Below, piece after piece: positions 3,598 through 59,350 of a DNA stretch of 64,000 nucleotides. Below the pieces are notes generated by a model. That model had not been told where the DNA came from, searched no databases, and saw only the letters and a program-made list of their open reading frames with translations. Source of the DNA: Caulobacter sp. X (GTDB lineage Bacteria > Pseudomonadota > Alphaproteobacteria > Caulobacterales > Caulobacteraceae); the NCBI RefSeq assembly GCF_002742635.1, contig NZ_PEGF01000002.1, positions 1,798,001-1,862,000 of the forward strand, written 5' to 3'. Position numbers and translations under genes: made by a program. Position 1 is the stretch's first letter. Each line of letters opens with the position of its first letter.

Positions 3598-3656
3598 GTA
3601 AGCGTCCGGCCGCTGCACATCCGTCAGGTGTTGACGTGATTTCCGCCGGGATCTTG

Positions 3657-3854
3657 TCAGGTGGTGGCTGCGTCAGCGCGGGCGAGGACGGTCTTCGCGC
3701 GCTTGACCGCGTCGCTGAACTCGTCGCTCTGCCAGTAGTCCTCGTCGGCGACTTGGTCGAAGGCGTCCTCCGACCGGCGGGTCAGTTCGCGCAAGGCGGC
3801 GAGCGCTTCCGTCAGCAGTTCGGCCTTGTCATCGCTCTGCGGAACTTGCGTCAC
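3657..3854 (-). CDS. Small hypothetical protein carried inside IS66
   Basis: A 65-residue acidic, mostly helical protein (starting MTQVPQSDDKAELLTEALAA) encoded between tnpC and the left inverted repeat of the IS66 element, on the tnp strand. It lies wholly inside the element, so it belongs to the IS and not to the ICE. I do not recognise a family. It could be a passenger protein or an IS accessory; a chance reading frame is possible, although composition and strand fit a gene. Confidence 0.5.
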   Translation of the reverse strand: MTQVPQSDDKAELLTEALAALRELTRRSEDAFDQVADEDYWQSDEFSDAVKRAKTVLARADAATT

Positions 3855-3935
3855 GTCGTCGTTCCTCTTGTCATTTCGGCCGCTGGACGGCTGACACCCG
3901 GTTCGTCTGACTTCTACCGGTTTGCAGCAGTTGCG

Positions 3936-5501
3936 TCAGGCCTCGGCTTTGTCAGCGCGTTTCCAGGCCCAGGGCAGCAGCTCGTCGAGGCGGTTGACGG
4001 GATGGCCTTCGACCATCCGCTCCAGCACATCGCGCAGGTAGGCGAAGGGTTCGACGCCGTTCATCTTGGCAGTCTCGATCAGCGAGGCGACCACGGCCCA
4101 GCGGGCGCCGCCGCCGTCGCTCCCGGCGAAGAGATGGTTCTTGCGGCCCAGCGCGACGGGCCGGATCGAGCGCTCGACGGGGTTGTTGTCGAGATCAACG
4201 CGCCCGTCGGCGAGGAACAGGCAGAGGCCTTCCCAGCGGCCGAGCGCATAGCGGATGGCGTCGGCAAGGGCGCTTCGTGGCGGCACGCGGGCCAGCTCCC
4301 GTTCCAACCAGATCTTCAGCGCCGCCACCAGCGGGCGGGAAGACTCCTGCCGCGCGGCCTTGCGCAAGGCCGCCGACTGTCCACGCACCTGGGCTTCGAT
4401 GGCGTAAAGCTCGCCGATCCGACGCAAGGCCTCGACGGACACGGGCGACTTGGTGGCCTCGGCGATCTCATAGAACTTACGCCGTGCATGCGCCCAGCAG
4501 GCGGCCAACTGGACCTCGCCGGACGCAGCCAGCGGCTCGAAGCCAGCATAGCCATCGACCTGCAGCACGCCCTTGAATCGCGCCAGATGAGCAGCGGGGC
4601 GCTCGCCTCGGCGGTCTGGCGCATAGACGTAGACCGCGCCGGGCGGCTCCGGCCCGCCCCAAGGGCGATCATCGCGGGCATAGGCCCACAGACGTCCTGT
4701 CTTGGTGCGCCCACGACCCGGATCGAGCACCGGGATGGGCGTGTCGTCGGCGAAGAGATGGCTGCTGGCGAAGAGGTTTGCGGCCAGCCTGTCGTGCAGG
4801 GCTTCAAGCCACCAGCAAGCCCCGCCTACCCATCCGGCCAGCGTCGAGCGCTCCAGATCGACGCCATGGCGGGCGAAGATCTTAGACTGCCTATAGAGCG
4901 GCGTGTGATCGCAGTACTTGCTGACCAGCACCTGGGCCAGCAGCGCGGGCGTGGCCAGTCCGCCGGCGATTGGTCGCTCTGGCGCGGGCGCCTGAACGAC
5001 GCTGGCGCAGGCGCGGCAGGCATACTTGGGGCGCACGATCCGGATCACCCGCAACTGCGCTGGGACCCAGTCGAGCATCTCGCTGACGCTCTCGCCGATG
5101 CCATGCAGCGGCCCGCCGCAGACGCAGACCTGGCGCTCGACATCGAGCACGCGCTCCTCGCGCGGCAGGTGCTCGGGCAAGGCTTTGCGCTTGGGCTGCA
5201 TTGGCCGAGGCGCGGGCAAGACGTCAGGGCGGCGCGCTTCGACAGCGGCCAGATCGGCCTCGACATCTTCCAGGCCCAGCGCCAACTGATCGGGATCCAG
5301 GCGCTCGGAGCGGCGGCCAAACTGCGCGCGCTGGAGCTGCTTGATGATGGTCTTGAGCCGCTCGATCTCGCCGTCCCGCGCCTCGACGAAGCCAGCCATT
5401 TCGCGCACCAGCTGGTGCAGCAAGGCCGTGTCGGTAGGCAGGTTTTCCAGATCCAGCCGCATGCCCGATTCTACACTTTTCGGACTCCGCGACCAAGCCA
5501 T
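3936..5501 (-). CDS. tnpC: IS66 transposase TnpC
   Basis: The 521-residue DDE transposase has an N-terminal coiled coil (residues 30-65, REMAGFVEARDGEIERLKTI), a zinc-finger-like CVCGG...CRAC pair, the central domain with HLFADDTPIPVLDPG and the DGYAGF segment, and the C-terminal box DLDNNPVERSIRPVALGRKN, which supplies the last acidic residue. This is full length for the family. It catalyses transposition of the surrounding IS together with the TnpA- and TnpB-type proteins encoded just upstream. Confidence 0.93.
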   Translation of the reverse strand: MAWSRSPKSVESGMRLDLENLPTDTALLHQLVREMAGFVEARDGEIERLKTIIKQLQRAQFGRRSERLDPDQLALGLEDVEADLAAVEARRPDVLPAPRPMQPKRKALPEHLPREERVLDVERQVCVCGGPLHGIGESVSEMLDWVPAQLRVIRIVRPKYACRACASVVQAPAPERPIAGGLATPALLAQVLVSKYCDHTPLYRQSKIFARHGVDLERSTLAGWVGGACWWLEALHDRLAANLFASSHLFADDTPIPVLDPGRGRTKTGRLWAYARDDRPWGGPEPPGAVYVYAPDRRGERPAAHLARFKGVLQVDGYAGFEPLAASGEVQLAACWAHARRKFYEIAEATKSPVSVEALRRIGELYAIEAQVRGQSAALRKAARQESSRPLVAALKIWLERELARVPPRSALADAIRYALGRWEGLCLFLADGRVDLDNNPVERSIRPVALGRKNHLFAGSDGGGARWAVVASLIETAKMNGVEPFAYLRDVLERMVEGHPVNRLDELLPWAWKRADKAEA

Positions 5502-5534
5502 TTCCCCTTGTGGCGCAAGGGTTTTGGCGGTGTT

Positions 5535-5888
5535 TCAGCCGGCGATGGCGGGCCGCCAGGTGCGCTCTGGGAAGCGCCAGTCGATGCCCTCGATGAGCAT
5601 GGAGAGCTGCGCGGGCGAGAGCACCACGGCGCCGCCCGGCGTGGTGATCTGGGGCCAGACGAAGCGGCCATGCTGGAGGCGCTTTGTGAACAGGCAAAGG
5701 CCTGTCCCGTCCCAGTAAAGCAGTTTGATCGTGTCGGCGCGGCGGCCTCGGAAGGCGAAGAGATGGCCCGAGAACGGGTCTTCCTTGAGCACTTCCTGGA
5801 CCAGCATCGACAGGCCTTCGAAGCCCTTGCGCATGTCGGTGTGGCCCAGCGCCAGATGCACCTTCACGCCCGACGGGATGAGCATCAT
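5535..5888 (-). CDS. tnpB: IS66 accessory protein TnpB (Orf2)
   Basis: A 117-residue protein typical of IS66 Orf2, with VKVHLALGHTDMRKGFEGLS at the N-terminus, HLFAFRGRRADTIKLLYWDG in the middle and RLQHGRFVWP thereafter. It is required with TnpA and TnpC for IS66 transposition; its biochemical role is not established. It overlaps the upstream tnpA by four bases and lies 33 bases before tnpC. Confidence 0.92.
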   Translation of the reverse strand: MMLIPSGVKVHLALGHTDMRKGFEGLSMLVQEVLKEDPFSGHLFAFRGRRADTIKLLYWDGTGLCLFTKRLQHGRFVWPQITTPGGAVVLSPAQLSMLIEGIDWRFPERTWRPAIAG

Positions 5889-6751
5889 CGGGTCGCCTCG
5901 CGCTCTTTGACGTACCGCCGGACGGCGTCGGGATCGCTGCCGGGCGGCGCGAACACCCGTCGTCCGTCGCCCAGATCGACGGCGATCGCCCCCTCGGGAA
6001 TAGGCAGCGGTATGGCCGTGGCGGGGATTTCGCCGGCCGCCTTGAGGCCCTCGCCCGTGAGCCTGACCCGCGCCAACTGTGCGCGCTCGCCTTGGCCAAG
6101 GCCCATCTGGGCGCGCCAGCGGAAGAGCATGCTGGTGACAACGCCGTGGCGTCGGGCCACCGCACTGACCGTGGCGCCGGGCGCTTCCGTCTCGGCGACC
6201 ATGGCGCGCTTTTGCTCTTCGCTGAACGTGCGCCGGCTGGAGCGGCCGTCGCCCTCGCGCAGCGTGCGAGGCGCCTCCGTCAAGCCGGATTCAGCGCGGC
6301 CGGCCTTAGCACTAGTGCTTCGTCTGGACCCCACATACGGGCGGGCGCTGGGATGAACGAGCTCTCTCCAGTCGATCCCAAGGGGCTCTTCATCGAGCCG
6401 GCGACGCCATTGCCGCAGCGACGACGGCGTCAATCGATGGGCGCTGGCGTACTCGGCCGCGCTCAATCCGCTCCACAATTGGGCCTCGACGTGCATGGCC
6501 CAGAACGCCTGAACGGCCTTGTTGCGGACCTCGTTTGTCGAGCGTCGCGGCGACGGCTTTGCCTTGCGCGAAGGCTTGTGGCGCAAGGCGTCGGCGTCGC
6601 CGATCACCTTCAGCCAGCGCCCGAACGTCTCGCTGTTGAGCCGGTGCTGCTGGCAGTAGGCCGACCTCGAAAGGCCGCTCAGACGCCAGGCCTCGACGTG
6701 GACCGCCCACCACATCCGCAGCGCACGGTTTTGGTACCGCTTCGAGGCCAC
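5885..6751 (-). CDS. tnpA: IS66 TnpA-type protein with extended N-terminus
   Basis: The C-terminal part (from about residue 170) is a standard IS66 TnpA: RTFSEEQKRAMVAETEAPG, ATVSAVARRHGVVTSMLFRW, then an AVDLGDGRRVFAPPG strand and the RRYVKEREATR tail. The first 160 residues add two further WxxHVEA...SGLS...YxxxHRL repeats, each resembling the same helix-turn-helix unit. At 288 residues it is about twice the usual TnpA length. This extended form occurs in some IS66 elements; the extra repeats probably recognise the ends. Confidence 0.85.
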   Translation of the reverse strand: MASKRYQNRALRMWWAVHVEAWRLSGLSRSAYCQQHRLNSETFGRWLKVIGDADALRHKPSRKAKPSPRRSTNEVRNKAVQAFWAMHVEAQLWSGLSAAEYASAHRLTPSSLRQWRRRLDEEPLGIDWRELVHPSARPYVGSRRSTSAKAGRAESGLTEAPRTLREGDGRSSRRTFSEEQKRAMVAETEAPGATVSAVARRHGVVTSMLFRWRAQMGLGQGERAQLARVRLTGEGLKAAGEIPATAIPLPIPEGAIAVDLGDGRRVFAPPGSDPDAVRRYVKEREATR

Positions 6752-6833
6752 CGCCGTACTCCCTCACAGATCAGGAGCCAGAGATGGTTGATCCCGCTGG
6801 ACGAGAACAAGAGTGCAACAACCGGACGCAAAC

Positions 6834-30393: not shown

Positions 30394-33300
30394 CTAGCAG
30401 AAGTTGCGGCTACGGCGAGCCCAGGACATGTCACCGGCGTCGGCGCCGCGGTCCTGCAGGGTCGAGAGCACGTCACCCAGGTCGTGCAGCTTGTAGGCGA
30501 CGAGGTGGACGACATCGCCCTCGCGCTGGATGCGGCCTTCCACGCCCAGCAGGTGGGCCGACAGGGCCACGCGGCGCTGCTTTTCGTAGAGCGTCTTCCA
30601 GATCACCAGGTTGGCGACGCCGGTCTCGTCCTCCAGGGTCATGAACATCACGCCCTTGGCCGTGCCGGGCATCTGCCGGACCAGGACCAGGCCTGCCGTC
30701 CGGACGAACTGGCGGTCGCGGCCGCTCGCCGCCGCCTGGCAGGGCTTGTAGCCCCTGGCCTCCAGCGTCCCGCGCAACAGGGCCAGCGGATGGCGGCGAA
30801 GACTGAGGCCGACATGGCCGTAATCCTCGACGATCTCGCGGCCCTCGGTCATGGCCTTCAGCGTGGGCGCCGGTTCGTTGAGCTCGGACGCATCGGGCTG
30901 GTCGAAGAGGGGGAGGGCGGTGTCACGCAGCCCCTTGATCCCCCAGCCGGCTTCGCGGCGCGCCAGGCCCAGGCTGGGGCGAAAGGCGTCGGCTTCGGCC
31001 AGGCGCGACAGGGCTCCGGTCCCGACCTGGGCGCGCCGCCAGACATCGTCGATCGAACGGTAAGGGTCTTCGGTCCTGGCCAGGACCACGCGGGCCGCGT
31101 CGGCTTCGGCCAGCTTGCCGACCATCCGCAGGCCCAGCCGCACCGCAAGGCCGCCGTCACCCGTCTCCTCCAGGGTGCAGTCCCAGCGTGAGGCGTTGAC
31201 GCAGATGGGACGCACTTCCACCCCATGCTCGATGGCGTCGCGGACAATCTGGGCCGGCTGGTAGAAGCCCATCGGCTGGCTGTTGAGCAGGGCCGCGCAG
31301 AAGACCTCGGGGTGATGGCACTTCAGCCAGGACGAGGCGTAGGCCAGGAGGGCAAAGCTGGCGGCGTGGCTTTCCGGGAAGCCGTAGGAGCCGAAGCCCT
31401 CCAGCTGGGCGAAGGTCTGTTCGGCGAACTCGACCGGATAGCCGCGCTCGACCATGCCGCCGACCAGCTTGTCCTTGAAGTGGCTGACCCCGCCCGTGAA
31501 CTTGAAGGTGGCCATGGCCCGGCGCAGCTGGTCCGCCTCGCCGGGCGTGAAGCCGGCGCACTCGATCGCCACCCGCATGGCCTGTTCCTGGAAGAGCGGC
31601 ACGCCCAGGGTCTTTCCCAGCACCTTCTCCAGCTCAGGCTTGGGGAAGGTCACCGGCTCCTTGCCCTCGCGGCGGCGAAGATAGGGATGGACCATGTCGC
31701 CCTGGATCGGGCCAGGCCGTACGATCGCCACCTCGATCACCAGGTCGTAGAACGACCGAGGCTTCAGGCGCGGCAACATGGCCATCTGCGCCCGGCTCTC
31801 GATCTGGAAGACGCCCAGCGTGTCGGCCCTCCGGATCATGGCGTAGGTGCGCGGGTCTTCAGGGGGGATGCTGGCCAGGTCGAGCGCAATCCCCTTGGCG
31901 TCCTTCAAGAGGTCCAGTCCGCGCTTCAGGCAGGTCATCATCCCCAGCCCCAGCACGTCGACCTTCATGAACTTCAGCTCGTCGATGTCGTCCTTGTCCC
32001 ATTCGATGATCTGGCGGTCTTCCATCCGCGCAGGCTCGATCGGCACCAGTTCGTCGAGTCGGTCCTGGGTCAGCACGAAGCCGCCGGGGTGCTGGGAGAA
32101 ATGACGCGGGGTGTTGAGCAGGAGCTGCGCCAGCTCCAGGGTCAGGCGTAGGCGCCGGTCCGAAAGGTCCAGGCCCATGTCGCGGGCGTGCTTTTCCTCG
32201 ATGTCCTCGCGGCTGAAGCTCCAGATCTGGCTGGAGAGACCCTTGGTCATGTCCTCGGGCAGGCCCAGCACCTTGCCAACGTCGCGCACCGCGCCGCGCG
32301 GCCGAAAGCGCTGGACCACGGCCACGATGGCAGAGCGGTGGCGACCATAGGTCTCGAAGATCCACTGCATCACCGTCTCGCGGCGGGCGTGCTCGAAATC
32401 GACGTCGATGTCCGGCGGCTCGTCGCGTTCGGCGCTGACGAAGCGCTCGAACAGCAAGTCGTTGCGCTCGGGGTCGATGCTGGTGATGCCCAGCACGTAA
32501 CAGACCGCCGAATTGGCCGCCGAGCCGCGACCCTGGCACAGGATGTCCTGGCTGCGGGAATAGCCGACGATGGAATTGACCGTCAGGAAGTAGGGCGCAT
32601 AGCCGAGCTGGCCGATCAGCCCCAGTTCGTGGTCGAGGATCTTGCGGACTTCCGGCGTCACGCCGTCGGGGAAGCGCTGGGCCGCGCCCTCCCAGGTCAA
32701 GCGCACCAGGGTTTGCTGGGCTGTCTCTCCGTCGGCGACCACTTCGCGCGGGTACTGGTAGCTGAGTTCGGATAGCGAGAACTGGCAACGGGCCGCGATG
32801 GCGACGGACGCGGCGACGGCGGCCCGATGGCGCGGAAACAGCCGAAGCATTTCGGCCGCGGCCTTCAGATAGCGGTCGGCGTGACGGTCACGCCGGAAGC
32901 CGACATCGTCGATCGTGGTGTTTTCGCGGATGCAGGTGACGACGTCCTGCAGCAGGCGGCGGTCCTTGTCGTGGAACAGCACCCGGTTGGTCACCACCGG
33001 CTTCACCCCGGCCGTAAGCGCCAGGTGCTCCAGCTCGTAGAGACGCAAGGCGTCGCCGGGCCGTCGGCGCAGGGTCAGGGCCATGTGGGCGTCGGCGCCG
33101 AAGATCGCCGAGAGGCGCGAGAGCTGCTGGGCGCAGACCTCGTCGGCGTCCTCGGGCACGAGGATGGCGATCAGGCCCTCGGCGTGGGCGGCCAGGTCGG
33201 CGTGGTCGAGATCGCATTCGCCCTTGCCGGCCCGGGCCTTGCCCAGGCTCAGCAGGCGGCAGAGCCGGCCATAGGCGGCGCGATCGGTGGGATAGACCAG

Positions 33301-33552
33301 GACCGTCATGCCATCGCGCAGGACCAACTCGCAGCCGACGACCAGCCGCACGCCGGTGTCCTTGGCGGCGATGTGGGCGCGCACCATGCCCGCCAGGCTG
33401 TTGCGGTCGCAGATCGCCAGGGCGCGATAGCCTAGGCGCTGGGCCTCGTCGAAGAGTTCGCCCGGCGAGGACGCGCCGCGCAGCAGCGAGAAGTGCGAGG
33501 CGCACTGCAGTTCGACATAGTCGCCGAGATCCTCCGGGACTGGGTTCGTCAT
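30394..33552 (-). CDS. dnaE2: Error-prone DNA polymerase III alpha subunit DnaE2 (ImuC)
   Basis: The 1052-residue C-family polymerase has an N-terminal PHP domain ([20 protein letters not shown]), the polymerase site [16 protein letters not shown], the [15 protein letters not shown] motif and [22 protein letters not shown]-terminal OB domain follows ([20 protein letters not shown]). It performs translesion synthesis after DNA damage together with ImuA and ImuB. It overlaps imuB by four bases and shares its operon and LexA box. The host probably has its own chromosomal copy. Confidence 0.95.
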
Positions 33553-35081
33553 CCGAATACCCCGGCCATGAACCAGCGCTGGCTACCGGTGGCGGCGTCC
33601 TCGCCGTCACCGTCGCGGTAGATCCAGTAGCGCTGGCCGCCTTCGTCCTCGACCTGGAAGTAGTCCCGGCTGCGGGCCAGCTCGGCGTCGGCCCGCCACC
33701 ATTCCCCGAACACCCGCTCAGGGCCGTCGGCCCGCCGCACGCGCCGGCGCGATCCGCGCCAGGTGAAGAAGGCCGGCGGCTGGTCAGGCAGGAGCGCGAC
33801 CGTCTCGATGGGCTCGGGGCGGGGAAAGAAGCGGGTGGGCCTTGGCCAATCGACCGGCCAGGAATAGGCGACGGGGCGCTCGATGGCCGGGGCCTTGCGG
33901 ACACTGCGCTCGGGGATGTCGCTCTCTGCGCTGGCCAGGCGGTAGACCGAGTCCGGACCCAGGCGCGCGGCCAGGGTGTCGATCAGACCCGCCAGATCGG
34001 CGACTGCCGGCTTGTCCCCACCCAGCCGCGCCTCGTCCTGCCGGTAGGCCAAGGGCTCGGCGCCCGGTGCAGCCAGGACCATCTTGTCGACCCCGAAGCC
34101 CGGATCGACCATCTCCAGCTTCTCGCAGAGGAGCTTGGCCAGACGGCGCGCGTCCCGGGCCGGGGTCGACAGGCCGATACGGGCGCTCTCGATCCGGTTG
34201 TCGACCCGGTAGAACCAGGCGTCGATCGACTTGGCCCCCAGGTTCAGGGCCTCCAGCGTGGCGCACAGTTCGACCGTCAGTTCGGTCAGATAGCGCGCCA
34301 TGGTCTCGGGCGCGCCGATCGGTTCGGCGAAGATCTTGGCCGCACGTGGAGTTTCGGGGGCGAAGACCGGTTCGATCGGTTCGCGTTCGCGGGCGAAGGC
34401 CTGGTCGAGGCGGCGGATCGGCTCCAGGCCAAAGCGATGGGCTAGCGGCCCCGTGGCCGTCGCCTCCAGCTCGCCGATGGTGTCGAAGCCGGGCTTGGCC
34501 AGGGCCTGGACGAGATCCGGCGGCAGGCGCAGGGCCGCCACCGGCAGGTCCCTCAGCTGGACGCCCAGCGCGCCCGGCGGCACGACGAACACCGAGCGGC
34601 GCGAATAGCGCGCCAGGGCGTGAGCGCCGCCCCAGCTGTCGGCGATGGCCAGGGTGGCGGTATAGCCGGCCTTGGCCAGGCGCTGGCGGATATTGACCAG
34701 CATCTTCTCCTCGCCGCCGAAGAGATGGGTGCAGCCGGTGGCGTCGATGACCAGACCATCGGGCGGGTCCGGGGCCACGGTCGGCGAATAGAGGCGCTGG
34801 GCCCAGAGGGCCAGGCGCTGCAGGGCGGCGTCATCCCCGGCGGCGTCGAGATCGTGCAGCACAAGACCTGGGACCATGGCGGTGGCATGGGCCACGGCCT
34901 GGCCCAGCCGCAGGCCGGCCTTGGCGGCGGCGAGGTTCATGTGCGCGATCGCACGGCGGCGCCCGACCCGTCCGACCATGACGACCGGAATGTCAGGCGA
35001 CGGCGCGGCCTTGCCCTGCATCCGCGCCAGCCGGTCGGTAGGCCAGCGGGGCAGGAAGACGGAGATGACCCTTTGCGTCAC
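33549..35081 (-). CDS. imuB: ImuB, Y-family polymerase-like mutasome protein
   Basis: A 510-residue Y-family-like protein with the ImuB start [13 protein letters not shown], the palm-region sequence [18 protein letters not shown] and a C-terminal domain with [20 protein letters not shown] and the [19 protein letters not shown] end. ImuB has lost polymerase activity in characterised relatives and works as an adaptor that brings DnaE2 to the sliding clamp. The start overlaps imuA by 89 bases and the end overlaps dnaE2 by four. Confidence 0.93.
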
Positions 35082-35760
35082 AGGCTTCTAGCTCGATGTC
35101 GAAGGCGTCGCCGGCCTTGCAGCGGAGGAGTTCTAGGAACCAGCGGGGGCGACCCACGCCGGGAACGGAAGGGGGCAGTGGAGAGGAGGGCAGGGTGGAG
35201 ACCCGCCAGCGAGTTTCCGAGGCCGTCGGCTGGCCAAGGTCCGCCGCGTCGGCGATCCGCCGCCATCTTCGGACCGCGATGGCGATCTGCCCGCTCTTCT
35301 CGGCCGCCAGCTGCAGCCGGCGCGAGGCGGTCATGGAGAGCTTGCCGACCTCGCCGATGACCCCGGCCAGGCCCGGCCAGCGCAAACCTTCCTCCATGGC
35401 CGCCAGGACGCCGGCCTCGTCGCCCGCGTCCGCGAAGATCACCCGGCTGGGCGGCAGGCCGGCCTGGGCCAGCGACGGGGCGAAGAGATCGGCCTGGCGC
35501 CGGCACCAGAGAACCTCACCCTGGGCGCGGGCCAAGATCCCGGCGGCGAACCGGGCGGCCGTGGCGCCATAGAGCGCTTCCTCCGCGCCGCCGGCCACCT
35601 CGTGCAGCGCGCCCAGCGCCAGGCCGCCGCCTGGCAGGCGCGCGTCCAGCGGCGGAACGCCGAACGGCAACACCGCCCGGGTGACGCGATCCTGGGTTTC
35701 CAGGGCGCGGACCTTGCGGCGGAGGGCATCGAGGGCGGCGGGATGAAGGGCTGCTGACAT
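34993..35760 (-). CDS. imuA: ImuA, SOS mutagenesis RecA-like protein
   Basis: The 255-residue protein starts at MSAALHPAALDALRRKVRAL. It has the RecA-like core of ImuA: PPLDARLPGGGLALGALHEV, GEVLWCRRQADLFAPSLAQA, RVIFADAGDEAGVLAAMEEG and LSMTASRRLQLAAEKSGQIA. ImuA is needed with ImuB and DnaE2 for damage-induced mutagenesis. It is first in the operon, 18 bases downstream of a perfect LexA box. An upstream in-frame ATG would place the LexA box inside the coding sequence and is rejected. Confidence 0.92.
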   Translation of the reverse strand: MSAALHPAALDALRRKVRALETQDRVTRAVLPFGVPPLDARLPGGGLALGALHEVAGGAEEALYGATAARFAAGILARAQGEVLWCRRQADLFAPSLAQAGLPPSRVIFADAGDEAGVLAAMEEGLRWPGLAGVIGEVGKLSMTASRRLQLAAEKSGQIAIAVRRWRRIADAADLGQPTASETRWRVSTLPSSPLPPSVPGVGRPRWFLELLRCKAGDAFDIELEACDAKGHLRLPAPLAYRPAGADAGQGRAVA

Positions 35761-35778
35761 GTTTGGAAGAACGACCTT

Positions 35779-35793
35779 GTTCCAGCTTTGTTC
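35779..35793 (-). promoter_or_regulatory. LexA (SOS) box of the imuA-imuB-dnaE2 operon
   Basis: On the minus strand GAACAAAGCTGGAAC is a perfect match to the alphaproteobacterial LexA site GAAC-N7-GAAC (GTTC-N7-GTTC on the other strand). It lies 18 bases upstream of the imuA start codon. LexA cleavage after DNA damage would derepress the operon. Confidence 0.88.
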
Positions 35794-35897
35794 TCTTCGG
35801 CGTGCGGGAGTCAACGGGGCCATGGGTGCGGCGCAGGCGCGCGCCCACCGCTAGATCCAGACGCGGCAAGGGTTTGAGCGGAATCAGAATTTTTCAG

Positions 35898-36440: not shown

Positions 36441-38564
36441 ATGACGCTCGATGTCCGCGGCAGCATCAAGAACACCAAGCTCAGCAAGAATCCCTACGTG
36501 GTGTTCGAGGAGCTGATCTCGAACGCCATCGATTCCTACCTGATCCGCAAGCACGACGATCCGACCGCGCCCAGCCTCAGCATCCGGGTCGACGTGGCGT
36601 TTCAGAAAGTCGATCTGCTCGACGATCGGGATGTGATGACCATCACCTGCGCCGACAACGGCTGCGGGCTGGGAGAGGCCCAGCTGAAGGCCTTCCTGAC
36701 CAAGGACACGTCGTACAAGGACGACCTGACGATCTCGGGAATCGGCAAGTGCAAGGGCGCGGGTCGTATCCAGTTCTTCCACTATTTCGCCGGCATGGCG
36801 ATCGACAGCACCTTCCGCCGGGATGGGCAGGTGTTTCGTCGCTGGATGACCTACGACGAACGTCAAAAGCAGATCGAGGCCGACGATTTCGCTGAGGACG
36901 CTGGCGACGCTTCGAAGATCGGCACGACCATCCAGCTGCTGAACTTCAAGGATGCCGCACGGGTTCGCCTGCCGCCCAACGCGCTGCTCAGCGCGATGTT
37001 CTCGGCGGCGGCGCTGAAGAAGCAGATGCTGCTGGCCTTCCTGCAGCGCCTGGTCGGCCTGTCTAGCCAGCTTGGCGATTTCGAGATTGTCTTCTCGACC
37101 ACCCATTGGGCCCAGCCCGACCAGACCGAAGTTCTTCGGCGCCAGGACCTGCCGGTCGTCACGGCCGTGCGGGAAGTCCAGGTCGAAGAGCGCGACCCGG
37201 ACACCGGCGGCGGTCTGGGGACTTTCCAGACCTTCAGGCTGTCCCACTATCGGCTGGATGCTGCATCGTTCGGCCTGAAGCGTAACGCCATCGCGTTCTG
37301 CGCCAAGTTCTCGCCGGTTCGCGACATCACCAACCGATACCTGCGCAGCAAGACCGAACAGAACAATCCCGTCGGCGGCTACAATCACATCGTCCTGATC
37401 GAGAGCGACTTCCTCGACCAGCACGTCAATGAGCAGCGCGACAACTTCGAGGATATTCCCGAAGAACTTGAGGCCGGCGGGCTCTTTGGCTCCGAGCGGG
37501 TGTCCTACGAGACGATCCATGCCGCCATCGATCCGGTGATCGACGCCATGGTGATCCCGGGCGACTGGAAGAAAGAGGACGTGGTCAAGGAGATCACCGA
37601 CAAGTACGGCGTCACCGAGGACATGCTGCAAGAGACCTCCACGCGGGTGGTCTACGGCGAGTCAGCCCAGAAGATCGTCGATCGGGTTCTGAAGAAGTAC
37701 CAGGAAAAGGTCATCGACGAGACCGCCGAGATCTACCGCCTGAAGGAAGAGATTGTCGCGGCCGAGCCGGACTCCGCCGATTTCCGCAAGAAGATCAGCG
37801 AGATTTCGTGGAAATATACGACGTCGCTGAAAAACTTCGACATGGCCAACCTCTCGCAGCTCGTCGTGCGGCGCGCCTGCATCGTCGAGGTTCTGGCCCT
37901 GGCCTGCGGGCGAAACCTGTCGGTGCAGAACCTGGATGACGGCGCCCGACGCAAGGACGAGCGGATCATCCACAGCATCTTCTTTCCGATGCGCCAGGAC
38001 AGCACCGAGGTCACCGACCACGACATCTGGCTGCTGAGCGAGGAATATCACTACTACGACTACATCGCCTCGGACATGCCGCTGGCCAACATCGTCTGGA
38101 ACAGCGACGAGAAGGTCTTCGAGAACGACATCGATCAGGCCTTCAAGGACCTGCTGGCCCGCCGCGCGCAGGACCACGGCGCCAAACGGCCTGACATCGC
38201 GCTGTTCAGCAAGGAAGGCTCGGCGATCATCGTCGAGTTCAAGGCGCCGGGCGTGTCGATGGACGACCACGTCGGCGACCTCAACCAATATGCCCACCTC
38301 CTGGCGGCCAAGTCGGGCGGGAGGATCAAGAGGTTCTACGGCTATCTCATCGGCGACACGCTGGATCCATTGCGGCTCAACGGCTGGACGCCGTTCCCTA
38401 CCGGCAAGGGCTGGTTCAATTCCGACAATCTCATAGACCCGACGACACGCACGAAGCTGGGCGAGACCTACTTCGAGATCCTGCACTTCGACGATGTCGT
38501 GGATCGCGCCCGCAAGCGCATCGGCGTCTACCAAGACAAGCTGAAGTTCAGCATCCCCAAGTAG
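36441..38564 (+). CDS. GHKL ATPase fused to PD-(D/E)XK nuclease
   Basis: The 707-residue protein begins with a Bergerat-fold ATPase: N box FEELISNAIDSYL (Glu24, Asn28), ADNGCGLGEAQLK (residues 71-83) and GIGKCKGAGR (100-109). A middle transducer-like region and helices (VVKEITDKYG, YRLKEEIVAAEPD) follow. The C-terminus is a nuclease-like domain with RPDIALFSKEG (Asp585) and AIIVEFKAPG (Glu599, Lys601). This build resembles MutL/MORC-type GHKL ATPases of conflict systems. The ATG is preferred to a GTG seven codons earlier. A HEPN-like gene follows 29 bases later. Exact family not recognised. Confidence 0.75.
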   Translation: MTLDVRGSIKNTKLSKNPYVVFEELISNAIDSYLIRKHDDPTAPSLSIRVDVAFQKVDLLDDRDVMTITCADNGCGLGEAQLKAFLTKDTSYKDDLTISGIGKCKGAGRIQFFHYFAGMAIDSTFRRDGQVFRRWMTYDERQKQIEADDFAEDAGDASKIGTTIQLLNFKDAARVRLPPNALLSAMFSAAALKKQMLLAFLQRLVGLSSQLGDFEIVFSTTHWAQPDQTEVLRRQDLPVVTAVREVQVEERDPDTGGGLGTFQTFRLSHYRLDAASFGLKRNAIAFCAKFSPVRDITNRYLRSKTEQNNPVGGYNHIVLIESDFLDQHVNEQRDNFEDIPEELEAGGLFGSERVSYETIHAAIDPVIDAMVIPGDWKKEDVVKEITDKYGVTEDMLQETSTRVVYGESAQKIVDRVLKKYQEKVIDETAEIYRLKEEIVAAEPDSADFRKKISEISWKYTTSLKNFDMANLSQLVVRRACIVEVLALACGRNLSVQNLDDGARRKDERIIHSIFFPMRQDSTEVTDHDIWLLSEEYHYYDYIASDMPLANIVWNSDEKVFENDIDQAFKDLLARRAQDHGAKRPDIALFSKEGSAIIVEFKAPGVSMDDHVGDLNQYAHLLAAKSGGRIKRFYGYLIGDTLDPLRLNGWTPFPTGKGWFNSDNLIDPTTRTKLGETYFEILHFDDVVDRARKRIGVYQDKLKFSIPK

Positions 38565-38593
38565 CCGCAGACCGCGCTGGAAAGGACCTCGCC

Positions 38594-39118
38594 GTGGACT
38601 CGCCCTTCGTCAGCGATGAGCATCGCGAGGCCTTCGCGCGTTACGGCCGCGCCCACTTCGCGATCCAGACCCTGGAGTACGAACTGGTCAACACCTACAG
38701 CGTCCTGAGCCTGCTGCCCGAGCGCAACGGGGTCGAGGACGCGGCCTGGGAAGGGCGGGTGGACGACTTCTTCGACACCAGCTTCACCCACACCTTCGGG
38801 ACCATGCTGGGCAAGATCAAGAAAACGGGGCGCCTACCAGCGGAGCTGCTGGCGCGGCTGGAGGCGTGCAAGCCCGAGCGCGACTTCCTGGTCCATCGCT
38901 TCTTCAGGTTCTACATCGAGGGCGGAGCGCCTCCAGATCAGCTCGAAGCCGCGATGATCGCGCGCAGCGACGCGGCCTGCGATGTCTTCATGGCCCTGAA
39001 CCGGGACCTGGAGGCCTTCAGCCATGGCATGGCCGAACGCTTCGGGATCACCGCGCAGATGATCGCCGACGAGATCGAAGCCGACCAGACCGCCCGCCAG
39101 CGGTCTGGCGACGTCTAG
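38594..39118 (+). CDS. HEPN-like partner of the GHKL-nuclease protein
   Basis: A 174-residue helical protein with a GTG start preceded by AAAGGA. ACKPERDFLVHRFFRFY (residues 91-107) carries an R-X4-H arrangement (Arg96, His101) like HEPN proteins, with an upstream helix HFAIQTLEYELVNTYSVL. It lies 29 bases after the GHKL-nuclease gene and is almost certainly in the same operon. Whether it is an RNase toxin, an antitoxin-type partner or a structural subunit cannot be told from sequence. Confidence 0.6.
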   Translation: MDSPFVSDEHREAFARYGRAHFAIQTLEYELVNTYSVLSLLPERNGVEDAAWEGRVDDFFDTSFTHTFGTMLGKIKKTGRLPAELLARLEACKPERDFLVHRFFRFYIEGGAPPDQLEAAMIARSDAACDVFMALNRDLEAFSHGMAERFGITAQMIADEIEADQTARQRSGDV

Positions 39119-40716: not shown

Positions 40717-40727
40717 TGTGGACGGCC
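40717..40727. repeat. IS1111-type subterminal inverted repeat, left
   Basis: TGTGGACGGCC, the exact reverse complement of 42075-42085. It begins two bases inside the left end of the IS. Confidence 0.75.
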
Positions 40728-40739
40728 CCCCGCTTGCAG

Positions 40740-40986
40740 TGAACGCGTAGACTATCTGACCTAATCGCTTGCTATCAGATGTCCGGCCTGTTTGCGCGAG
40801 GAAACCTCGCTGGCCAAGATGGTGTTCGCTACTCGCGCTCCAAACACATTGGCGACATCTGGGTGCCAGTGCAATCTTCGGAATGTCGCGCGTACCGACC
40901 GATCGGTCATTTCCATCTATGCGTTCGTGCAAGTCTCCTGGGCGGTCCGGGTGCAGCCTCGTTGGCTTCCGGGCGCCGGTCTCAGA
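40740..40986 (-). ncRNA. Possible IS1111-type bridge RNA region
   Basis: The stretch between the transposase stop and the left end of the IS has no credible gene. It contains hairpins GCGAGG-aaa-CCTCGC (40796-40810) and ACCGA-ccga-TCGGT (40894-40907). In IS1111-group elements the bridge RNA that guides target choice is encoded in the non-coding end downstream of the transposase. The assignment rests on position and these hairpins; boundaries are unknown. Confidence 0.35.
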
Positions 40987-42015
40987 TCAGGTCGGGTTCA
41001 GCGCTGCGGGTCGGGTGTATACTCCGCCCGACACCATCAGCCGCCAAGCGATCCTGGCGAACTTGTTGGCCATCGCTACCGCGACCAGCTTGGGCGGCTT
41101 CCGCTCCATGAGCTTGGCCAGCCATGGCGATGGCTTCGTATGCCCGAGGCGCACATGGCGCAGCAGCGCTGTGGCCCCGACGATCAGCGTTGACCGGATC
41201 GATGGATCTCCGGCCTTGGTGATCCCGCCGAGCCTTGATCGACCGCCCGTCGAATGGTCTCGCGGCGTGAGACCCAGCCAGGCCGCGAAGTCGCGCCCCG
41301 AGCCGAAGGTCTCCGCCGGAGGCGCTTTCATGCTCAGCATCGTCGAGCCGATAGGACCGACGCCGGGAATGGTCGCGATGCGCCGGCTCAGCTCGTCGGC
41401 GCGGTGCCACTTCATCAGCTTCGCGTCGATCTCCGCCAGGCGCGCCTCGACCGCGGCGTACTCCTTCGCCTGGAAGTGGAACAGCTCGCGGGCCAGTTCC
41501 GGCAGCGTGTCATCTTCGAGGACGCGCGCGATCAGACCGTTGACGTTCTGCCGGCCCGAGGGGCCCACGATCCCGAACTCCGCCGCATAGCTCCGGAAAG
41601 CGTTGCTGAGCTGCGACTTCACCATGACCAGGCGCTCGCGCACGGTCATCAACATGCAGGCCGCCTGACGCTCCTTGGACTTTACAGGCACGAAGCGCAT
41701 CGTCGGCCTGGTGACGGCCTCGCAGAGCGCTTCGGCGTCGGCCGCGTCATTCTTCCCGCGCTTGACGTACGGCTTCACGTACTGCGGCGGGATCAGCTTC
41801 ACCTCGTGGCCGAACGACTCCAGGAGCCGCGCCCAATGGTGGGAACTGCCGCAGGACTCGATGGCGACAAGAGCCGGCGGAAGCTTTTCGAAGTAGCGGA
41901 TCATGTCGGCGCGCCGGAGTTGGCGTCGCAGAACTACAACCTCGTTCTCATCAACTCCGTGGAGCTGGAACACGGACTTAGCCGTGTCCATGCCGATACG
42001 CACTGGTGTAACCAT
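40987..42015 (-). CDS. IS110-family (IS1111-type) transposase/recombinase
   Basis: The 342-residue protein has the DEDD RuvC-like domain at the N-terminus (RIGMDTAKSVFQLHG, VAIESCGSSHHWARLLESFG, YVKRGKNDAADAEALCEAVT) and the C-terminal Tnp domain ATIPGVGPIGSTMLSMKAPP with GSGRDFAAWLGLTPRDHSTG, which carries the catalytic serine in this family. The PPQYVKPYVKR stretch places it in the IS1111 group. It is intact and probably active. Confidence 0.93.
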   Translation of the reverse strand: MVTPVRIGMDTAKSVFQLHGVDENEVVVLRRQLRRADMIRYFEKLPPALVAIESCGSSHHWARLLESFGHEVKLIPPQYVKPYVKRGKNDAADAEALCEAVTRPTMRFVPVKSKERQAACMLMTVRERLVMVKSQLSNAFRSYAAEFGIVGPSGRQNVNGLIARVLEDDTLPELARELFHFQAKEYAAVEARLAEIDAKLMKWHRADELSRRIATIPGVGPIGSTMLSMKAPPAETFGSGRDFAAWLGLTPRDHSTGGRSRLGGITKAGDPSIRSTLIVGATALLRHVRLGHTKPSPWLAKLMERKPPKLVAVAMANKFARIAWRLMVSGGVYTRPAALNPT

Positions 42016-42074
42016 GTTGCTCTCCTCTCGACTGGCTTGTTGACGCTAAGCGCCATCAAACCGTTGGGATGAGA

Positions 42075-42085
42075 GGCCGTCCACA
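42075..42085. repeat. IS1111-type subterminal inverted repeat, right
   Basis: GGCCGTCCACA, the exact reverse complement of 40717-40727, ending six bases inside the right end of the IS. Confidence 0.75.
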
Positions 42086-42160
42086 CCAACACATCCTCGA
42101 ATGTCCCTGCCGGCCGATCCATTGAAGCTAGCGGTCAGGCGACCAGGTGCAAGGCCGTCT

Positions 42161-44811: not shown

Positions 44812-45189
44812 ATGATCGGTAGAGACCCCTCCCTCGACGCCTGGGCCATCGAGCAGCTTCAGGAAACTCAGGCGCGATCCGAACACGAAGTGCATGGCCT
44901 CGGCCTGCCGGACGGCGATCCTTGGCCGGGCGCTGGCGCCGTTCGGATTGAGTGCGAGGACAACCGGCAGGGAAGGCGAGAGCTGTTTCTGTCGGCCCGC
45001 CCCGTTCGCCTGGGACAGGTCGAGCTAATCCTTGACTTGAAGACGCAGGCGCCAGGGCGCGACCGACCTCACGGCAAAATCGTCAACATGGCTCTCTCAC
45101 CCGACGCCCTGCGGGATTTCGCGCAAATGCTGCTCGACGCTGCTGACGAGGCCGAGCGCAACAAGCCCCGACCGAGGCCTGTTCGCTAG
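44812..45189 (+). CDS. Hypothetical protein next to the integrase
   Basis: A 125-residue acidic protein (MIGRDPSLDAWAIEQLQETQ start) with beta segments AVRIECEDNRQGRRELFLSA and VELILDLKTQAPG and a helical end ALRDFAQMLLDAADEAERN. The stop overlaps the integrase stop by four bases, convergently. No family recognised. Confidence 0.55.
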   Translation: MIGRDPSLDAWAIEQLQETQARSEHEVHGLGLPDGDPWPGAGAVRIECEDNRQGRRELFLSARPVRLGQVELILDLKTQAPGRDRPHGKIVNMALSPDALRDFAQMLLDAADEAERNKPRPRPVR

Positions 45190-46280
45190 TCGTCTGGATC
45201 TGTCCAGGGCTTGAGAAGCGCGACCGCGGCGTGGACCGACTTGGCTTTGATGTGAGTGTAGCGGCGCAGCATCTTCCAGTCCTTGTGGCCGGTAATGAGG
45301 GCGACCTGTTCGATCTTCAGGCCGGCTTCGAACAGGCGGCTGGTCGCCTCGTGACGGGTGTCGTGGAAATGCAGGTCGTCGATCTTTAGCTTGGCGACCG
45401 TCCGCGTGAAGGCCGCGCTGATCGCCTCCGACGTATAGGGGAAGATGCGGTCGTCGAAGTTCGATCGGATGGCGCGCTGCTCCTCGATCAAGGCTAGCGG
45501 GTCGTAGCCGGTGATGCTGACCAGCGGGATACGCTGGTCGTTGCCGTACTTGTCGCGCGGGTCCTTACGATCGCGAATAATGATGGTCTTGGCCCGGAGG
45601 TCGAGATCGCTCCAGGTGATGCGGCAGATCTCGTCCTGGCGCATGGCGGTACCGATCGCGAACTGGATGATCCGCGTCATCGGGTTCTTCTGCCAGGGGT
45701 TCTCGTCGAACGCCTTGAAGATCAGGTCCAGCTCTTCCTGGGTCGGTCGTCGGTCGCGTTCCTGACTCTTTCCGATCAGGCCCAGATGCTTGAGGGCCAG
45801 ACGTCCCAGCTCGATCGGCTCGATCTTAGTGTCGATCTCATGGACGGCCGAGGCATGGGCGAAGACCAACTTGATCCAGCCAACATACATGCCGATCGTC
45901 ACAGGGCCGGTGCCGCCGCGCGCCCGGGTGCGGCCGAACTCGATGATGAACTGCCGATCGATCTTGGCGTAGGCGGTCTTTCCGATGGTGCGGCGCAGGT
46001 GAAGCAGCGCCTCCAGCTTCGTCCGCCCGATCGGCTTTTTCGCGGCCGCCAGATCGTCGATGTGCAGATCGATCAGGTGGGCCAGCGACGTCTTGCTAGC
46101 GATGTAGGTCTTCATCGGGGCCAAGCCCCGATCGATCGCGCTCTCCTGGGCCGTGGCCCAACGCCGCGCGTCCTCGCGCAGTTTGAACGTCTCGCTTATA
46201 TAGCGGCCCTTCCGACGGATGATCGCTCGCCAGGCGCCGGAGGGCAAATTCACAAAGGTCGCCATTTTCGTGTACGCCAT
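45186..46280 (-). CDS. int: Tyrosine site-specific integrase of the dusA-associated ICE
   Basis: About 364 residues. The N-terminal arm-binding domain (FVNLPSGAWRAIIRRKGRYI), core-binding SAM-like domain and C-terminal catalytic domain are visible, with arginine in GTAMRQDEICRI, HDTRHEATSRLF (His-x-x-Arg) and RRYTHI (nucleophile Tyr). It should catalyse integration and excision at the dusA 5' end. The start is set at MAYTKMATF; a later ATG at 46265 is also possible. No strong ribosome site is seen before either. Four GTAC-containing repeats overlap the start region. Confidence 0.9.
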   Translation of the reverse strand: MAYTKMATFVNLPSGAWRAIIRRKGRYISETFKLREDARRWATAQESAIDRGLAPMKTYIASKTSLAHLIDLHIDDLAAAKKPIGRTKLEALLHLRRTIGKTAYAKIDRQFIIEFGRTRARGGTGPVTIGMYVGWIKLVFAHASAVHEIDTKIEPIELGRLALKHLGLIGKSQERDRRPTQEELDLIFKAFDENPWQKNPMTRIIQFAIGTAMRQDEICRITWSDLDLRAKTIIIRDRKDPRDKYGNDQRIPLVSITGYDPLALIEEQRAIRSNFDDRIFPYTSEAISAAFTRTVAKLKIDDLHFHDTRHEATSRLFEAGLKIEQVALITGHKDWKMLRRYTHIKAKSVHAAVALLKPWTDPDD

Positions 46281-46331
46281 GTGTACAGTGAAATGTCGGA
46301 ACATAGAGAAAACCTGGGTACATTTGGGTAC
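46270..46331 (+). repeat. Four phased GTAC repeats near the element end (candidate arm-type sites)
   Basis: GTGTAC occurs at 46270-46275 and 46281-46286 (11 bases apart), and GGGTAC at 46316-46321 and 46326-46331 (10 bases apart). Same orientation and helical spacing suit arm-type integrase binding sites close to the attachment site. The role is inferred from position and spacing. Confidence 0.45.
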
Positions 46332-46378
46332 AAGCTTCGGTTTTCGGTATCTCCTAACACATTGAATATACGACAAAA

Positions 46379-47395
46379 ATGACGCGATTTGAACCCCATA
46401 GATTTTCTGTTGCGCCCATGATGGACTGGACGGACCGGCACTGCCGGTCGCTGCATCGCGTTCTGTCCAGCCGCGCGCTGCTCTACAGCGAGATGGTGAC
46501 CAGCGGGGCGGTGGTCCATGGCGATCGCGAGAAGCTGCTGGGCTTCGACGCCGGTCAGCATCCGGTGGCGCTGCAACTGGGCGGGTCCGACCCGGCCGAG
46601 TTGGCCCTAGCCGCGCGGATCGGCGAGGACTGGGGCTATGACGAGATCAATCTGAACGTCGGCTGCCCTTCGGACCGCGTGCAGAGCGGCCGTTTCGGCG
46701 CCTGCCTGATGCGCGAGCCGGATCTCGTGGCCGAGTGCATGGCCGCCATCAAGGACGCGGTGAAGGTTCCGGCCACCGTGAAGTGCCGGATCGGCGTCGA
46801 CGACCAGGATCCGGAAGAGAGCCTCTTCACCCTGGTCGACCGCTGCGCCGCCGCGGGGATCGACAGCTTCATCGTCCACGCCCGCAAGGCCTGGCTGCAG
46901 GGGCTGTCGCCGAAGGAGAACCGGGACATTCCGCCGCTGGACTACGAACTGGTCTATCGGCTCAAGCGCGAGCGGCCGAACCTGACGATCGCCATCAACG
47001 GCGGCGTGCCCAGCGTCGACGCGGCGCTGGAGCACCTGGCGAATGGCGTCGATGGCGTGATGCTGGGCCGCGCTGCCTATCACGAGGCCGGCCTGCTGGG
47101 CGAGGTCGATCGGCGGGTGTTCGGCATGGACGTCGCCGACGTCGACAGCTTCGAGGCCGTCGAACGCTATCGGCCCTATCTGGCGCGCGAGCTGGCGGCG
47201 GGGACGCACCTGGCGGCCATGACGCGGCACATGCTGGGCCTGTTCCACGGCCTGCCGGGCGCGCGGGCGTGGCGGCGCATCCTGACGGTCGAGGGCGTCA
47301 AGACTGGCGCGGGTCTGGATGTCGTGGATCGCGCGCTGGACGCCGTGCGCGCGGCGCTGGCTTCGCGCGAGGAGCGGACCGCCCCGGCGGCGTAA
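46379..47395 (+). CDS. dusA: tRNA-dihydrouridine synthase A
   Basis: The 338-residue flavoprotein has the DusA start FSVAPMMDWTDRHCR, the catalytic cysteine in NLNVGCPSDRVQSGRFGACL, VKCRIGVDD and TIAINGGVPS. It reduces uridine at positions 20/20a of tRNA. The first codons lie at the element boundary, so the promoter and leader now come from ICE DNA; no clear ribosome site precedes the ATG. The protein appears complete. Confidence 0.95.
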   Translation: MTRFEPHRFSVAPMMDWTDRHCRSLHRVLSSRALLYSEMVTSGAVVHGDREKLLGFDAGQHPVALQLGGSDPAELALAARIGEDWGYDEINLNVGCPSDRVQSGRFGACLMREPDLVAECMAAIKDAVKVPATVKCRIGVDDQDPEESLFTLVDRCAAAGIDSFIVHARKAWLQGLSPKENRDIPPLDYELVYRLKRERPNLTIAINGGVPSVDAALEHLANGVDGVMLGRAAYHEAGLLGEVDRRVFGMDVADVDSFEAVERYRPYLARELAAGTHLAAMTRHMLGLFHGLPGARAWRRILTVEGVKTGAGLDVVDRALDAVRAALASREERTAPAA

Positions 47396-59044: not shown

Positions 59045-59119
59045 TCCGCGGTAGCTCAGTGGTAGAGCAGCCGGCTGTTAACCGGCTGGTCGTAGGTTCG
59101 AATCCTACCCGCGGAGCCA
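59045..59119 (+). tRNA. tRNA-Asn (GTT), copy 1
   Basis: A 75-base cloverleaf with encoded CCA: acceptor TCCGCGG/CCGCGGA, D arm GCTCAGTGGTAGAGC, anticodon arm CCGGCTGTTAACCGG with GTT, and T arm GTAGGTTCGAATCCTAC. Decodes AAC/AAU. Confidence 0.97.
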
Positions 59120-59275: not shown

Positions 59276-59350
59276 TCCGCGGTAGCTCAGTGGTAGAGCA
59301 GCCGGCTGTTAACCGGCTGGTCGTAGGTTCGAATCCTACCCGCGGAGCCA
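59276..59350 (+). tRNA. tRNA-Asn (GTT), copy 2
   Basis: Identical in all 75 bases to copy 1, 231 bases downstream. The tandem arrangement with repeated promoter and leader indicates a duplication. Its 3' end is the left boundary of the small island that follows. Confidence 0.97.

Follow-up and report, generated by a model that had tools for sequence, protein, structure and literature searches.

The genes at 36441-39118 of the window (the whole 64,000-nucleotide stretch of Caulobacter sp. X DNA that was analyzed) raise a simple question. Do an ATPase-nuclease and the small helical protein encoded next to it form one defense system, or are they two separate genes? The original prediction read them as a GHKL ATPase fused to a nuclease, with a HEPN-like protein as its partner.

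Gene pair and sequence features

The first gene, P0001, starts with an ATG at 36441 and is a frame of 707 amino acids. The second, P0002, starts with a GTG at 38594, 29 bases after the P0001 stop. The positions and motifs predicted earlier for both proteins, and the gap between them, are all present in the DNA. The features are as follows.

36441..38564, + strand: P0001, GHKL ATPase–PD-(D/E)xK nuclease fusion, 707 aa (translation, homologues, alignment, model)
36441..36950, + strand: GHKL (Bergerat) ATPase domain, P0001 residues ~1-170 (invariant motifs in 49 homologues, Foldseek)
36993..37475, + strand: middle S5/transducer-like domain, P0001 residues ~185-345, boundaries approximate (alpha/beta region of the model, fold matches)
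37506..37910, + strand: helical linker, P0001 helices 356-489 (secondary structure of the model)
37938..38561, + strand: C-terminal PD-(D/E)xK nuclease domain, P0001 residues ~500-707 (conserved D...ExK, HSDR_N in a homologue, SduA_C profile match)
38193-38195, 38235-38237 and 38241-38243, + strand: nuclease residues D585, E599 and K601
38581..38586, + strand: AAAGGA, probable ribosome-binding site of P0002 (sequence)
38594..39118, + strand: P0002, 174-aa helical protein, HEPN-like R96-x4-H101 (translation, relatives, model)
38879-38881 and 38894-38896, + strand: P0002 residues R96 and H101

The ATPase motifs of P0001 are EELISNAIDS (E24, N28), DNGCGLG (D72, G74, G76) and GIGKCKGAGR (G106, G108, R109). 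In an alignment of 49 homologues, with identity down to 23%, all of these residues are identical in every sequence, as are T162 and the nuclease residues E599 and K601. D585 is kept in 48 of the 49. Residues E507, E534 and D545 are all invariant, and any of them may be the first acidic residue of an E-D-ExK motif. Because the ATPase and nuclease residues are invariant or nearly so, the motifs of P0001 exceed chance. Judged by conservation, the same is true of P0002. Other genera have diverged homologues of it (18-35% identity), 12 of which were aligned; all 12 keep R96 and H101, and this conservation marks it as a real gene.

Domains and fold of P0001

Standard profiles recognize P0001 poorly. 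HMMER gave Pfam HATPase_c at E=6e-4, under the cut-off of that family, and HSDR_N at 0.05. PADLOC had no credible model for P0001 or P0002, and a search of solved structures with the P0001 sequence gave sub-threshold Hsp90 matches only. Current Pfam and PADLOC profiles miss this branch. One homologue, which is 48% identical to P0001 (L042), does pass the curated cut-off of HSDR_N (25.5 vs 25.1 bits).

The AlphaFold2 model (m1e5ba868b28c) was built from 42 homologues, with rows from plasmid records left out. It has a mean pLDDT of 79.8 and a pTM of 0.54, so that confidence between domains is modest. Foldseek matched the N-terminal half to the GHKL+S5 modules of SMCHD1, PMS2/MutL, GyrB and Hsp90. 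The best matches cover both parts of the module, which places an S5-fold domain, with approximate boundaries, after the GHKL domain. The helical linker that follows is a probable dimer or clamp arm.

In the model, the C-terminal region runs helix 564-573, strand 585-589, strand 594-600, helix 613-625 and strand 631-638. This predicted order is the one expected of a PD-(D/E)xK restriction-endonuclease core, and D585 and E599-x-K601 are placed on, or at the edge of, two of the strands. With this strand order and the HSDR_N match in the homologue, the C-terminal domain does model as the nuclease that had been foreseen.

A profile of the C-terminal region of the family was also compared with a small alignment of the Shedu domain SduA_C. 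The match had a probability of 79.6% and a score of 42.1. Among 198 column shuffles the maximum was 24.9 (5.1%), and two unrelated profiles gave 0.1-0.2%. The match is far above the shuffles, and homology of the nuclease domain to the Shedu nuclease is therefore supported at the profile level, in a comparison that covered Shedu and two unrelated profiles; the match may thus not be specific to Shedu. The whole-length family profile failed against a single Shedu protein, whereas the C-terminal sub-profile succeeded against the Shedu family alignment.

Relation to known ATPase-nucleases

P0001 shares with MutL/PMS2 and MORC proteins the GHKL and S5 domains of an ATP-driven dimer clamp, and many MutL proteins also carry a C-terminal endonuclease. 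The identity to P0001 is low, however (~12%, Foldseek), and the nuclease fold of MutL/PMS2 differs from that of P0001.

Two described architectures are closer. The paraMORC3 architecture was described in 2008 by Iyer, Abhiman and Aravind, who predicted a restriction-endonuclease-fold domain in it (PMC2292703). P0001 has the same plan: an N-terminal GHKL domain, an S5-like domain and a C-terminal restriction-endonuclease-fold nuclease with D-ExK. Like paraMORC3 it is sporadic and mobile, and its kind occurs within restriction-modification (RM) operons or alone in proteobacteria. By domain plan and motifs, we place P0001 with the paraMORC3 proteins. The second is VcSduA of Vibrio cholerae, a GHKL-type Shedu nuclease (type I-D) for which phage restriction was shown in 2025 (PMC12137116). 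Its defense requires the ATPase residue E27 (E27A) and the nuclease residue K557 (K557A), and it acts alone in E. coli (PMC12137116).

VcSduA was compared with P0001 through its published description and through Vibrio and Acinetobacter homologues. Both are of the same domain order, VcSduA being a single-gene system, and P0001 keeps the equivalents of the ATPase glutamate and of the nuclease lysine. The equivalents of E27 and K557 are E27/K556 and E27/K558 in the aligned Vibrio and Acinetobacter homologues, and E24/K601 in P0001. This alignment suggests that these homologues are VcSduA-like. P0001 differs from them in being only ~23% identical, about 30 residues longer and without a match to SduA_C (DUF4263) by HMMER. 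It is also separated from them by a long branch, and its trigger and target may therefore differ from those of VcSduA.

Compared with Shedu SduA itself (SduA_C, PF14082), the nuclease can be aligned by profile (79.6%) over the D...ExK-P core as well as the closing strand-helix, whereas the N-terminal half is unrelated and P0001 has no Pfam match. In hmmscan, P0001 gave no PF14082 match at E<=1. Since the SduA_C profile does not recognize P0001 directly, we do not file it as Shedu proper.

The original prediction could not match the pair to a named system. The ATPase-nuclease architecture is that of paraMORC3 (PMC2292703), and VcSduA is of the same design (PMC12137116). By way of this design, the idea of an uncharacterized system is largely superseded.

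Homologues and phylogeny

Homologues of P0001 were found in 27 plasmid records (20-67% identity), on 3 viral contigs and at 56 loci on genome contigs, the element's own copies included. Phage records held no homologue at E<=1e-5; PHROG 6203 matches part of P0001 (E=8.9e-11). The family profile found a match in 11 of the 399 genomes searched from the phylum. Among 199 genomes of the family Caulobacteraceae there are 3 full-length copies, and all three belong to one element.

In a maximum-likelihood tree, the clade that includes P0001 has 46 rows and is supported (100/99). It is separated from the Vibrio/Acinetobacter group by a long branch, of the sort that the tool marks as unsure. The clade mixes several proteobacterial classes with a few records labelled Armatimonadota, Verrucomicrobiota and Cyanobacteriota, some records in the tree being metagenome bins. 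This mixing of lineages suggests that the family has spread by horizontal transfer. P0001 thus belongs to a distinct, well-supported and mobile subfamily of GHKL-nuclease fusions, akin in design to a protein whose restriction of phage has been validated by experiment.

A mobile element in dusA carries both genes

Up to the start of dusA, the window is ~99.98% identical to the matching DNA of two other Caulobacter-group genomes; beyond it, identity is ~87%. The drop from 100% to ~87% occurs just past a tyrosine integrase, which ends at dusA. Two features define this end.

45186..46376, - strand: tyrosine integrase of the element (Pfam Phage_integrase, E=3e-24)
46412..46428, + strand: right attachment core GCGCCCATGATGGACTG, 17 bases, in the 5' end of dusA

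Accompanied by a remnant of the dusA 5' end, GCGCCCATGATGGACTG recurs ~98 kb leftward at genome position 1746420, an arrangement known from other islands in dusA (PMC4482086). The part of the element in the window has Trb/VirB-type conjugation genes and encodes a DUF3363 protein, and it is therefore probably an integrative conjugative element. It would span ~98 kb (genome 1746420-1844412), that is, window 1-46411 and ~52 kb leftward, with a putative left end placed solely by the 17-base repeat with its dusA remnant.

There are three copies of the element in all: that of the window, one in NZ_APMP01000015.1 (Caulobacter vibrioides OR37) and one in a Caulobacterales metagenome bin; one contig covers only the part from 19220 on. 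P0001 and P0002 are cargo of this probable conjugative element. The identical pairs in the three genomes are one recent event.

Other parts of the element vary or stand out. Window 3599-6833 does not align to one otherwise near-identical copy (G121), which suggests a second insertion or a replacement within the element. An IS110-family element at 40718-42089 (transposase 40987-42015, - strand) is present in this copy and not in the other two. A DnaE2-like polymerase, an ImuB-like protein and a probable ImuA, assigned by size and position, form a mutagenesis cassette at 30394-35823. To the left of the element, a further remnant of the dusA 5' end, with the attachment core GCGCCCATGATGGA, was seen at ~5918 of locus L109 (genome ~1723922), suggesting tandem or earlier insertions in dusA. 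Outside the element, the window has two tandem tRNA-Asn(gtt) genes (59045-59119 and 59276-59350).

P0002 as a proposed partner of P0001

The original prediction had P0002 as a second-line effector or subunit next to an ATPase-nuclease that senses or clamps DNA and cuts it; in such a system P0002 would be an RNase or a regulatory subunit. Several observations fit such a two-component system. The genes are on the same strand with a gap of 29 bases, P0002 has its own probable ribosome-binding site, all three near-identical elements have the pair intact, and the P0002 family conserves R96 and H101. Fusions of HEPN domains to other paraMORC ATPases are also on record (PMC3710099).

The survey of homologues points the other way. 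We searched the loci of P0001 homologues for the P0002 family by tblastn, phmmer and then a family profile, in flanks of up to 6-8 kb, some of them shorter. It was found only in the element of the window and in its two near-identical copies. No member of the P0002 family adjoins any independent ATPase-nuclease homologue. Conversely, relatives of P0002 occur without an ATPase-nuclease neighbor, among them one in an apparent single-gene integron cassette. The three paired copies are not independent, because they are one mobile element, nearly identical in three genomes. That two genes are neighbors in copies of this sort is no ground for calling them a system. What is left of the proposed pairing is this single element, and a conserved system of ATPase-nuclease and HEPN protein is not supported. 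We regard a genuine two-component system as very improbable. P0002 looks like a gene of its own that moves independently and by chance adjoins P0001 here.

One weak match to P0002 directly downstream of a homologue (L052) was rejected. Read by eye, the opposite strand of this region seems to code for an H-NS-like protein.

Genomic contexts and proposed function of P0001

P0001 has no conserved partner of any other kind. A tightly coupled neighbor on the same strand (at least 120 aa) is present at 12 of 64 loci. The element's own copies account for three of these loci; at the rest, the neighbors differ from locus to locus. As coupled neighbors are few and varied, the ATPase-nuclease gene is usually solitary.

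The company that it keeps is one of defense and restriction genes. The 99 nearest neighbors of 58 homologues, annotated by PADLOC and Pfam, include GajA/GajB, HerA, PtuA, AriA, MADS, Mrr, GmrSD and type I specificity subunits; this tally is a description and not a measured enrichment. Together with the alignment, the model and the fold matches, these neighbors uphold the prediction of a GHKL ATPase fused to a nuclease in defense contexts. On a Sinorhizobium plasmid (L006, 10282-18115), a close homologue of P0001 lies in a defense-rich stretch amid genes annotated as ATP-binding protein, SIR2, DarT-like and macro-domain.

We consider it likely that P0001 works like VcSduA, as an ATP-gated DNA nuclease of the paraMORC3 kind that needs no second protein; it would clamp and cut DNA and so protect its host, with P0002 as a separate gene. 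On binding of ATP, two subunits would dimerize through their GHKL domains. The middle and helical regions would then close as a clamp on foreign DNA or on replicating phage DNA. Closure would position the C-terminal PD-(D/E)xK domains, which would cut the DNA, and hydrolysis of ATP would reset the clamp. In this way the host of the element would be shielded from phage or from rival elements, probably through direct restriction and not through suicide.

Two other functions have to be weighed against this one. The ATPase-nuclease could be a subunit with an accessory or fail-safe role that depends on an RM system encoded elsewhere in the cell, acting for example where a type I enzyme has marked unmodified DNA. 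In two cases the homologue is part of a type I restriction operon, where it comes after hsdS, which it overlaps by 4 or 11 bases, and before hsdR; this restriction context also fits the ATP-gated nuclease. In Mariprofundus (L045, 2163-11301) the order is hsdM, a 307-aa protein, hsdS, ATPase-nuclease and hsdR, where hsdS was assigned by its place, its size and type I specificity matches. In Ghiorsea (L042, 3829-12279) it is hsdM, hsdS, ATPase-nuclease, a Fic protein and hsdR. On a Vibrio fluvialis plasmid (L011), type I genes are followed by a Shedu gene and then by the ATPase-nuclease. The paraMORCs were, moreover, first predicted as RM components (PMC2292703). This dependence is nevertheless unlikely: most of the 64 loci lack a tightly coupled neighbor, no RM gene was found among the window proteins examined, and VcSduA works alone in E. 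coli (PMC12137116). Since the branch has both free-standing members and members in type I operons, what the GHKL clamp senses becomes testable.

The other function is housekeeping or maintenance of the element, such as mismatch-repair-like processing, exclusion of a second element or stabilization of the element, and not phage defense. The likeness of the GHKL+S5 module to MutL/PMS2 and topoisomerases would fit this, as would the place of P0001 on a probable conjugative element near the ImuB-DnaE2 mutagenesis cassette. Its distribution is sporadic, however, with the copies found in the family all being one element, its neighborhoods are rich in defense genes across lineages, and VcSduA is a functional precedent for defense. 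A maintenance role accordingly seems a poor prospect.

The P0002 family at other loci

P0002 resembles HEPN RNases (PMC3710099) in being all-helical, with an invariant R-x4-H, a usually polar residue after the arginine and a near-invariant upstream glutamate. In 12 diverged members of its family R96 and H101 are invariant in all, E28 is nearly so, and the residue after R96 is mostly D or N. The predicted model, from an alignment of 3 sequences, is helical with a pTM of 0.73. It differs from HEPN RNases (PMC3710099) in giving no significant fold match against the PDB (best E=0.15, not HEPN), and no significant match was found among viral folds either. HMMER against Pfam gave no match for P0002, and a sequence search of solved structures gave nothing usable. 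Single relatives have weak Pfam matches to DUF4145, HEPN_Apea and HepT-like families (E 0.006-0.03). P0002 may thus be called HEPN-like by motif only.

Relatives of P0002 adjoin GajB-like UvrD helicases at two loci (L098, L100), and one relative directly follows a Qat system (L117). Tentatively, the family may consist of undescribed stand-alone HEPN-like defense effectors that move singly from one defense hot spot to another, the places being the integron cassette in Vibrio, the P2-like prophages beside a reverse-transcriptase (DRT) system, Qat and the GajB-like helicases. P0002 could then add a further line of protection to the element, independent of the ATP-gated nuclease.

At the second helicase locus (L100, 3942-7440) there are three genes, which encode the P0002 relative, the GajB-like UvrD helicase and a 280-aa protein without a Pfam match. 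On P2-like prophage contigs (L110, 4992-5504 and 5586-7560, and the equivalent in L111), a relative lies beside a UG17-type reverse transcriptase and a SLATT protein. On a Vibrio alginolyticus plasmid (L115, 3992-4534), a relative forms an apparent single-gene integron cassette in an array with repeated DUF3265 genes. The surroundings of this cassette include abortive-infection, PIN and restriction genes.
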